A stretch of DNA of 35,478 bases from a virus, in IMG/VR virus record IMGVR_UViG_3300011118_000016, positions 1 to 35,478 of that record; one strand, written 5' to 3'. Shown piece by piece: positions 4,323 to 26,546 of this stretch. A program made the position numbers and the translations under genes. Under the pieces are notes generated by a model. The model was given only the letters and a program-made list of their open reading frames with translations, searched no databases and was not told the DNA's origin. Each line of letters opens with the position of its first letter. The stretch's first letter is position 1.

Positions 4323-4507
4323 AGAATATACCAATTTCTCAGTTAAAGCAGATGTCAACTAAAGAGATAAAGGAAGGTCCCAGCTTTAATGTAATAGCTG
4401 ATGGGGAGTTTGCCTTTATTGTGGTTGTCCCTGCCTCAGCAGAAAAGAGGTTCCAATTCCAATCCTTAGCTGATATGGGCAATAAAGCACTAGGATTTGA
4501 AGATTAG
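4319..4507 (+). CDS. small protein of unknown function
   Basis: 62 residues, starting inside the stop of the zinc-ribbon gene, with GGAGG just upstream. The N-terminus reads as a short amphipathic helix (ISQLKQMSTKEIKEG), followed by two hydrophobic strands (FNVIADGEFAFIVVV) and a short C-terminal helix. The shape loosely recalls Phd-type antitoxins, but no toxin partner is present, so I do not assign that role. Confidence 0.55.
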   Translation: MKNIPISQLKQMSTKEIKEGPSFNVIADGEFAFIVVVPASAEKRFQFQSLADMGNKALGFED

Positions 4508-4533
4508 AGGAGTCTTTAAAGGGAGGTGATGTA

Positions 4534-6183: not shown

Positions 6184-7194
6184 ATGAAATATTTAAGGGC
6201 GGATACGGCAGCAACTATTTTAATCGGTCCAGCAGTGGCGGTAGCTGATGGGGTAACGCCAGTTACAGATGTTACCCTAGCAGGGGCTGACCACGCCGAG
6301 TTAATGAAGCACGATGGCACTACCTTTGTTGACCTCACATCGGATAGTAGAACTCTAACTCACAAAGAGGGTGGCTGGTATACCTTGACACTAGGGACTG
6401 GGGATACAGACACAGAAGGTCGGCTTACCGTGCTTATTATGGACACTGATAAATGTTTGCCTATCTGGATGGAATTTATGGTAATGAACCAGCCTGCTTA
6501 TGACGCCCTTTATGCTGTTGCGGCTACAGATTACTTGCCAACAGATGTGACGCAGATAGCAGGCACGGCTGTTCCCAATACCAGCGGCAAGCTCCATGTG
6601 CTTGACGATGAAGGTAATCCCGTAGCCAATGAAAGCAAGCAAGATATTATTGATACCAACATTGACGACATCGAGACTGACACAAATGAGTTGCAGACAG
6701 ATTGGCACGATGCTGGCAGGTTGGATGCCTTAATAGACGCCATTAAAGCTGTAACCGATGCCTTGCCTGACGCGGGGGCTTTAAGCGACTTGGCAAATAT
6801 GAACGATACGGACTTACCAGCTGTAAAGACTGTGGTAGATGCAATTCAGGTCATTACAGATAATATTCCAGATAGTGGTGCCTTGACTGCCCTATTAGCT
6901 TATGTGGATTGCCTACCTGCTTCCCTGAATAATCTTTCTGCTGCTGAGGTTAATGCCGAAGTGGTGGATGCTCTGGGGACAGATACACTCTCGGAGTTAT
7001 CCCAAGGAGTGCCAGCATCCACGCCTACGATAAAGGCTGCCTTGATGCTCCTCTATATGATAGCTAGGAATCAATTAACCACGACTGCTTCTTCACTGGG
7101 TGTCTATAACGATGCCGGGACTAAGATTGCTAAGAAAGCCTTGAGCGATGATGATACGACCTATACTGAAGGAAAGATGGCAAGTGGGGCATAA
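6184..7194 (+). CDS. fibre-like protein with BppU-type N-terminus and coiled-coil shaft
   Basis: 336 residues, with GAGGAG upstream and one base after the previous stop. Residues 1-100 are a beta domain (RTLTHKEGGWYTLTLGTGDT, then a hydrophobic strand) of the kind that anchors receptor-binding proteins. From ~150 onward there is a heptad-like shaft with repeated units such as RLDALIDAIKAVTDALPDAG and VVDAIQVITDNIPDSGAL. The C-terminus is a small Gly/Thr-rich tip. The shaft unit recurs in the genes at 7786 and 8260, so these are paralogues. Probable role: tail or head fibre. Confidence 0.7.
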   Translation: MKYLRADTAATILIGPAVAVADGVTPVTDVTLAGADHAELMKHDGTTFVDLTSDSRTLTHKEGGWYTLTLGTGDTDTEGRLTVLIMDTDKCLPIWMEFMVMNQPAYDALYAVAATDYLPTDVTQIAGTAVPNTSGKLHVLDDEGNPVANESKQDIIDTNIDDIETDTNELQTDWHDAGRLDALIDAIKAVTDALPDAGALSDLANMNDTDLPAVKTVVDAIQVITDNIPDSGALTALLAYVDCLPASLNNLSAAEVNAEVVDALGTDTLSELSQGVPASTPTIKAALMLLYMIARNQLTTTASSLGVYNDAGTKIAKKALSDDDTTYTEGKMASGA

Positions 7195-22212: not shown

Positions 22213-22255
22213 CCAGAATAAAAGGAGGGGGATATGGAAGCATACCATTTCTTAA
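22184..22255 (+). pseudogene. remnant start of an MT-A70-type methyltransferase
   Basis: A 23-residue ORF beginning MKKYQIIYADQNKRRG. MT-A70 adenine methyltransferases typically open (K)KYQIIYADPPW, where DPPW is catalytic. Here the match runs exactly to the Asp and then diverges. The start also lies in the 32-base repeat shared with 25291. It ends inside the next gene. Interpreted as the scar of a deleted or replaced gene. Confidence 0.45.
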
Positions 22256-22956
22256 AGGACAATATGAGAGGGGGGTATGGACGGGAGAAGGCTTGGAAGA
22301 TTGGTGAGGAGCGGGAGGTTAAGGGTGAACTTAAAATGTGTGAGTGGGGATACCACGCTAGTCCTAGTTTCTATGACGCATTACCCTATGCTAAAGGGAG
22401 TATAGCTTGTATAGTGGAGTTGTCAGGTGAAATAATTAAGGCTACAGATAAATATATAGGCAGAAAGCGCAAGCTCATCAAAGCGGTTAATGCTGAAAAG
22501 GTATTAAGAACTTGGGGATGCGACTGTGCTGAAAGAGCATTAAGGAAAGCCAAAGTTAAAGATGAACGAAGCTGGAACGCTATTAAAGTAGCCCGATTAT
22601 ACAATGAGGACAAGGCTACTAAAAAGGAACTAGCTGCTGCTTGGGCTGCTGCTTGGGCTGCTTGGGCTGCTACTAGGGCTGTTTCGGATGCTACTTCGGC
22701 TGCTGCTTGGGCTGCTGCTAGGGCTGCTGCTAGGGCTGCTTGGGCTGCTAGGGCTACTGCTGAGGCTGTTGCTAGGGCTGCTGCTAGGGCTGCTTGGGCT
22801 GCTGCTTGGGCTGCTGCTGAGGCTGCTGCTGAGGCTGCTGCTGAGGTTGCTGCTGAGGCTGCTAGGGCTGCTGCTTGGGCTGCTGCTGAGGCTGCTGAAA
22901 CCCAGTGGCAGAGAAAGCGTCTTAATAAACGTATGAAGGAACTGATGGAGCAATGA
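22234..22956 (+). CDS. DUF7666-like protein with Ala-Ala-Trp/Arg/Glu repeats
   Basis: 240 residues, with AGGAGGGGG upstream. The N-terminal ~110 residues (EAYHFLKDNMRGGYGREKAW, then KMCEWGYHAS, and VELSGEIIKA) fit the small domain found in many phages with pattern FK-x-x-n-C-x-GFHA (DUF7666-like). From ~131 to 225 the sequence is almost all Ala with Trp, Arg or Glu every third or fourth residue, which would form one long amphipathic helix. The C-terminus is basic (QRKRLNKRMKELMEQ). Function unknown. It is the payload of slot A. Confidence 0.65.
   Translation: MEAYHFLKDNMRGGYGREKAWKIGEEREVKGELKMCEWGYHASPSFYDALPYAKGSIACIVELSGEIIKATDKYIGRKRKLIKAVNAEKVLRTWGCDCAERALRKAKVKDERSWNAIKVARLYNEDKATKKELAAAWAAAWAAWAATRAVSDATSAAAWAAARAAARAAWAARATAEAVARAAARAAWAAAWAAAEAAAEAAAEVAAEAARAAAWAAAEAAETQWQRKRLNKRMKELMEQ
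22632..22905 (+). repeat. GCT-rich coding tandem repeat
   Basis: About 270 bases built from GCTGCT followed by TGG, AGG or GAG and GCT. Every Ala uses GCT and the variable codon changes mainly at its first base. Such DNA is prone to slippage, so copy number may vary. It also opens long false frames on both strands. Confidence 0.9.
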
Positions 22957-25944: not shown

Positions 25945-26118
25945 ATGAGTAGAGATAAAAGGTTTGACTGGTGCCAAGTGGAAGGATGTTGTAACAAAGC
26001 TAAATATGGTATATACAGACAATTACCCTATAGAACTAAAAAGTGGCTCCGGGTATGTGGTGCCTGCGAGAGAATAATAGGCGATGAGAATATGCGCCGA
26101 GCCACATTAAAACCTTAA
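25945..26118 (+). CDS. small Cys-rich zinc-binding protein
   Basis: 57 residues, with GGAGGGTT upstream. Cys residues fall in two groups, WCQVEGCCNKA and VCGACERIIG, separated by a basic stretch (YRQLPYRTKKWLR). The spacing suggests one treble-clef or ribbon-type zinc site. Basic overall, so nucleic-acid binding is likely. No family recognised. Confidence 0.6.
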   Translation: MSRDKRFDWCQVEGCCNKAKYGIYRQLPYRTKKWLRVCGACERIIGDENMRRATLKP

Positions 26119-26124
26119 CAACTG

Positions 26125-26450
26125 AATATTGAGGTCGTGCAGCCGGTGAGGGTCGCCTAAATATAGGGCTACTCAATTGACTAAATAGGCGATTACCTAA
26201 TAAGTTGCTGGTGTCCCAGGTGGCGAAGCTCCGCTCTATAGCGAAGTGGTATGGCTCTATAGCGATGTGCCATGCAAGAATCTGGGCAGTCATTGACCGA
26301 GTCAGCAACTAACTCGCTCTGCCAGGTGTAGAGTGGGTACCGATACTGCCTTATAAGCAGTGTCAGCCAATGCCCTGTGGGGGTGGATGGCTAGTAGCTA
26401 CGGATGAGAGAAACCGAATTATGTGAAAGCCAGCCCCCACAGAGCAAGGA
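26125..26450 (+). ncRNA. candidate structured non-coding RNA
   Basis: About 350 bases without a plus-strand gene, full of long pairings: 26153-26159/26186-26192 (7), 26203-26210/26303-26310 (8), 26215-26220/26281-26286 (6), 26232-26235/26240-26243 (4), 26249-26255/26269-26275 (7), 26298-26302/26312-26316 (5), 26342-26349/26357-26364 (8) and 26375-26383/26434-26442 (9), the last continued by a 5-pair stem. The loop 26303-26311 can pair upstream, giving a pseudoknot or a switch. A 12-base direct repeat, GCTCTATAGCGA, sits at 26233 and 26254. No known RNA class is recognised. No clear promoter is seen, so it may be processed from the early mRNA. Confidence 0.55.
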
Positions 26451-26465
26451 AAAGAGAAGTAAAGT

Positions 26466-26546
26466 ATGAAAATAGAATGGTATATTGTTTGTTGTAAAGG
26501 GTGGTGTGTATTAAAAGCTAAACTGGAGGGGTTAGATGAAAGCTAA
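26466..26546 (+). CDS. possible 26-residue peptide
   Basis: The ATG follows AGAGAAG. The peptide MKIEWYIVCCKGWCVLKAKL is hydrophobic with three Cys. It overlaps the next gene start by 11 bases. It could be a leader peptide that couples translation. Weak evidence. Confidence 0.25.
   Translation: MKIEWYIVCCKGWCVLKAKLEGLDES

Follow-up and report, generated by a model that had tools for sequence, protein, structure and literature searches.

NusB-S10 antitermination of rRNA operons is signalled in the RNA by boxA, and in the nut elements of phage lambda a boxA is combined with a hairpin, boxB. The put elements of phage HK022 and the EAR element of Bacillus are processive antitermination RNAs, likewise structured and acting within phage or long operons, while GOLLD, ROOL and OLE are large structured bacterial RNAs, the first two often found in phages. 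BoxA is known to precede long untranslated RNAs in the case of rRNA and has been reported ahead of CRISPR arrays, and addition of boxA to a synthetic CRISPR array raised transcription about 10-fold (PMC7862264).

Here we describe a locus in an IMG/VR virus record of 35,478 bases from an uncultured phage (the window), in which a first-pass annotation had proposed a large structured non-coding RNA of no known class in a gap of the early operon. Our best reading is that positions 26114-26445 specify an untranslated structured RNA that is co-transcribed with the early operon. This RNA is real but poorly conserved and matches no Rfam family; comparable RNAs in four related phages, together with a compensated helix in two of them, bear out the original proposal. 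The annotation missed the boxA-like 5′ end.

As in rRNA operons, a similar short 5′ motif heads a long untranslated structured RNA, but the window motif lies between protein genes of an early phage operon, its NusB-S10 binding is putative and it departs in sequence from the E. coli form, which may not be that of the host. As in lambda nut, a boxA-like motif is followed by a hairpin, and in relatives the motif likewise stands in a leader close to a promoter and ahead of terminators; here, however, the helix is not recognisable as a boxB, the body measures 180-600 nt against about 60, and no N-like protein was noticed. The HK022 put and Bacillus EAR elements are, to our knowledge, smaller and not headed by the window's motif, and the window RNA, which has no Rfam match, is also shorter and much less conserved than GOLLD, ROOL and OLE.

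Over 347 bases, from the end of the open reading frame (ORF) at 25945-26118 towards the ORF at 26536, the plus strand carries no gene, save for a possible 26-codon ORF starting at 26466. The first-pass annotation had named a conserved protein in some frame as one finding that would count against an RNA; stops interrupt every plus-strand frame of the gap, a search for relatives of a 90-aa minus-strand ORF returned none, and peptide readings of the RNA found nothing in viral and genome contigs. The gap is non-coding, as proposed, with its folding concentrated in the 3′ half. The borders shift from 26119-26465 to about 26114-26445, where the relatives place the RNA. A probable ribosome binding site, AAGGA, follows the RNA in the window and in two relatives, L003 and L090. 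The window RNA lies downstream of the helicase loader and VRR-NUC genes, farther along the early operon than in its relatives, and candidate promoters and terminators for the RNA alone did not exceed chance level. Elsewhere in the window (22234-22953), a DUF7666 protein carries a long low-complexity repeat tail rich in Ala, Trp and Arg (AAWAAWAA..).

Searches of the whole window against Rfam 15 at the gathering score matched no family, including GOLLD, ROOL, OLE, group I and II introns and riboswitches, and at E ≤ 10 the window, L090 and L003 regions gave spurious weak matches only. ARAGORN reported no tRNA or tmRNA, and blastn against phages returned nothing. Coordinates of the features are collected in Table 1.

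Table 1. Features of the RNA locus in the window (positions within the 35,478-base record; MFE, minimum free energy).
Feature	Position	Strand	Basis or remark
Upstream 57-aa Cys-rich ORF	25945-26118	+	Stop codon inside boxA-like motif
BoxA-like motif CTTAACAACTGAATA, proposed 5′ end	26114-26128	+	Overlaps stop codon of upstream ORF; identical in L013 and L105
First hairpin domain	26128-26177	+	P1 26128-26133/26172-26177 (AUUGAG/CUCAAU) encloses hairpin 26145-26157; direct complementarity
GACTAAATAGG, possibly a second boxA-like site	26179-26189	+	Also in L013 (GACTTAAATAGG) and L003 (TTTAAATAG), beside their first helices
Second domain	26203-26310	+	Closed by 26203-26210/26303-26310; MFE fold
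Second-domain helix CCCAG/CUGGG	26215-26219/26282-26286	+	MFE fold
Repeats GCTCTATAGCGA in second domain	26233-26244 and 26254-26265	+	
Hairpin ACUCGCUCU/AGAGUGGGU	26312-26338	+	MFE and centroid fold; region z −2.9
Hairpin GAUACUGC/GCAGUGUC	26342-26364	+	MFE and centroid fold
3′ hairpin	26375-26442	+	Outer stem CUGUGGGGG/CCCCCACAG; z −3.5 for 26366-26446
3′ hairpin inner stem UGGCU/AGCCA	26388-26392/26428-26432	+	
AAGGA, probable ribosome binding site of 26-codon ORF at 26466	26446-26450	+	Sequence; just past RNA

Compared with shuffled sequences, the whole region folds with no clear margin (z −1.5, 8 of 100 shuffles equally good); the minus strand of the same region gives z −3.15. The excess sits in the 3′ half (26296-26370, z −2.9; 26366-26446, z −3.5), where a sliding window reaches z −4.1 at 26325, the lowest value across the 2.6 kb of operon scanned, whereas the 5′ parts folded alone are at chance (26114-26203, z 0.2; 26203-26320, z 0.0). 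The stems named in the annotation are present, among them the 9-pair stem (26375-26383/26434-26442), and the 12-base repeat is an exact one, at 26233 and 26254. Each repeat copy belongs to one of two adjacent small hairpins, an arrangement resembling a local duplication; a search pattern made from the repeat hit 23 loci, all dismissed as chance since they aligned over the repeat alone. The 8-base complementarity between 26203-26210 and 26303-26310 also exists, but a nested stem closing the domain describes it better than the suggested pseudoknot: the predicted fold with this pairing (−62.8 kcal/mol) is about 8 kcal/mol better than one in which the competing GAGU/ACUC hairpin is forced (−54.9 kcal/mol). 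No homologue aligned to this second domain. In the first domain, the P1 fold lies 2 kcal/mol above the MFE, a rival pairing joins 26153-26159 to 26186-26192, and the domain alone folds no better than shuffles; P1 has counterparts in the predicted folds of L013, L003 and L021. The window's MFE fold pairs the final one or two bases of the boxA-like motif.

Comparable RNAs occupy non-coding early-operon gaps in four related IMG/VR phages, L003 (342 nt), L013 (about 180 nt), L021 (about 240 nt) and L090 (600 nt), so that the group numbers five, every member from an uncultured phage. The homologue search began from 41 viral loci with a neighbouring VRR-NUC gene, among them L003 (gap 1425-1766); L013 and L021 came from a list of gaps in phages with a common helicase-loader gene, and L090 was found with a pattern from the 3′ end. 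Sequence searches around VRR-NUC and around the downstream gene gave no clear homologue. A RecT-family gene immediately precedes the RNA in L013 and L021, and in L021 a DnaB_2-domain replication gene follows it; the L003 and L090 gaps have a similar location, 5′ of the helicase loader, and their upstream genes have no Pfam match. The RNA thus stays within the early operon without being tied to one neighbour. Its body is highly variable in sequence and in length (about 180 to 600 nt); what is shared is limited to the 5′ end, to which three of the five RNAs add the 3′ hairpin. Our analysis shows an RNA family with a common 5′ motif, the placement of that motif and a conserved 3′ hairpin.

The L013 gap opens with CTTAACAACTGAATA, all 15 bases as at 26114-26128 of the window, and variants open the L021 (ATTAGCAACTGAATA) and L090 (CTTTAACAATAGAATA) RNAs; the L003 RNA has a degenerate 5′ motif only. 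In the window, L013, L021 and L090, the motif at the start of the gap overlaps the stop codon of the preceding gene or follows it at once. A site with two or fewer mismatches is expected with a chance of about 1.7e-6 per position, and reversed-pattern controls gave 0 matches against 5 for the real pattern and, in a second scan, 4 against 10. Beyond the five RNAs, the motif occurs in L105 some 25 nt past a perfect TTGACA-17-TATAAT promoter, in L141 (from the phage of L030) after a similar leader, and in the phages of L004 and L017 on a stop codon with an intrinsic terminator directly after. These leader and terminator sites fit a boxA, because antitermination signals are expected there. A variant in L127, another operon of the L003 phage, is buried in a long, strong hairpin, and the L105 leader (2438-2464) has an imperfect inverted copy of about 27 nt 3′ of the first gene (2893-2919), with which it could pair around that gene; given this burial and this inverted copy, the motif may have another role in L127 and L105. 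In L135 and L139, a boxA-like TTAACAACTGAATAA sits on gene stop codons with intrinsic terminators immediately after.

The ACUGAAUAG half of the motif (ACTSAATAG) recalls what we take to be the actinobacterial rrn boxA. The gamma-proteobacterial boxA consensus is GYTCTTTAANA (PMC5725501); L090's CTTTAACAA comes close to this consensus, which may not be that of the host, and the window motif and its variants match this gamma-proteobacterial form only in part. Two other VRR-NUC phages (L036 and L038, both at 4373-4520) carry a boxA-like CTYACAACTRAATA followed by about 130 nt of non-coding sequence with 7 compensatory pairs of 31 and a folding z that is not significant; they are treated as analogous and not as family members. 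Between these two phages the flanks are nearly identical and the 130-nt stretch is strongly divergent, a local hotspot of RNA divergence.

Immediately after the 5′ segment, the predicted folds of L013, L003 and L021 leave the first 15-16 nt unpaired and then form a two-part helix. L013 and L003 share the flanking words TTAAATAG and TAGCCAGCAAG and the outer helix GCUGG/CCAGC, whereas the inner helix is GUCAG/CUGAC in one RNA and AAGGG/CCCUU in its counterpart. Of these five pairs, four are changed on both strands yet still pair, and the fifth is the same, so the helix has been kept while its sequence was replaced. This compensation concerns two sequences and one helix, in a register taken from a blastn alignment and predicted folds; a MAFFT alignment of the two misplaced the first helix and was not used. 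The covariation that the first-pass annotation had suggested as a check is seen in one helix of L003 and L013 and not in most of the window's own helices; since it lies in the relatives, support for individual window stems comes mainly from the 3′ hairpin.

The L003 gap ends in a window-like UGUAAAAGCCAGCCCC..CCAAGGAAAAGG, a weak match to the window hairpin, and the L090 hairpin is 84% identical to that of the window (26380-26442) over 69 nt, with a conserved loop (UAGUAGC..CGGAUGARAGAAACCRAAUUAKGUGAA). A covariance model of the hairpin recovered just the window, L090 and L003 at E below 0.5 among 53 loci and 37 phage records, and two further matches at E 0.6-0.9; as it was built from those same three sequences, its scores are no independent test. 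One of the model's predicted pairs is changed on both sides, and the hairpin's support is sequence conservation, its predicted pairs covarying little. We regard it as an RNA motif outside Rfam that probably binds something. The only genome match of the hairpin pattern, in an Actinomycetes genome (L093), was judged chance (E 0.5), and a look for rrn leaders in that genome did not find the 16S gene; viral-contig matches besides L090 lacked the rest of the hairpin and were rejected, and an ambiguous stretch of L013 resembling the motif (GACU..AGUC) was left uncounted. Within the L090 RNA, a partial second copy of the motif (GATGAAAACCGAAATGGGTGAAATCC) lies on the minus strand at about 6922-6952.

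That the region is a decayed intron, ribozyme or gene remnant whose structure arose by chance would suit the non-significant folding of the whole region and the chance-level 5′ half, but we hold it to be very improbable: hairpin and 5′ motif are conserved in separate phages, the L003/L013 helix is compensated, and group I and II introns and other Rfam models are unmatched. A cis-regulatory leader or riboswitch governing translation of the next gene would account for the position of the 3′ hairpin, which in the window, L003 and L090 stops a few bases short of a ribosome binding site; the downstream gene, however, is not the same across phages, Rfam riboswitch matches are absent and the boxA-like end would go unexplained, which makes such a leader improbable. 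Conservation of unpaired bases between the window and L090 hairpins despite different adjoining genes, the large folded body and its differing operon position between window and relatives would all suit a phage gene for a trans-acting RNA (scaffold, decoy or protein-binding RNA) that is cut out of the operon transcript, with boxA serving only to protect its transcription, as it does for rRNA and CRISPR arrays. The variability of the body outside the small shared core, and the absence of dedicated promoter or terminator signals above chance, speak against such an RNA gene, which we consider possible but doubtful.

We tentatively prefer, at slightly less than even confidence, a boxA-headed untranslated RNA that acts as an unusually large nut-like cis element. 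The identity of the motif as boxA, its binding by Nus factors and the ensuing antitermination are inferred from sequence. Emerging in the nascent RNA, boxA would recruit host NusB and ribosomal protein S10 (NusE), together with NusA and NusG, and RNA polymerase would be converted to the Rho-resistant antitermination form of rRNA operons, cross the ribosome-free stretch and continue into the downstream genes; the helix 3′ of boxA would keep boxA exposed and the folded body would offer Rho little free RNA. Against this nut-like reading, a body of 300-600 nt far exceeds the needs of antitermination, and the reading offers no explanation for the 3′ hairpin conserved between the window and L090. 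The body may be a folded spacer that aids antitermination or an RNA with its own job, the latter suggested by the conserved loops of the 3′ hairpin. It seems unlikely, though conceivable, that these are a phage family of large RNAs in which boxA, jointly with a folded body that evolves fast, serves at several points of the genome as a processive antitermination device with no need for a phage protein.

If the motif is a boxA, uncultured phages would borrow the host's rRNA antitermination machinery for structured RNAs and long operons, and would do so at leaders, at terminators and inside operons. Beyond rRNA, CRISPR arrays and lambdoid phages, a further group of phages would then be added to the known users of boxA.
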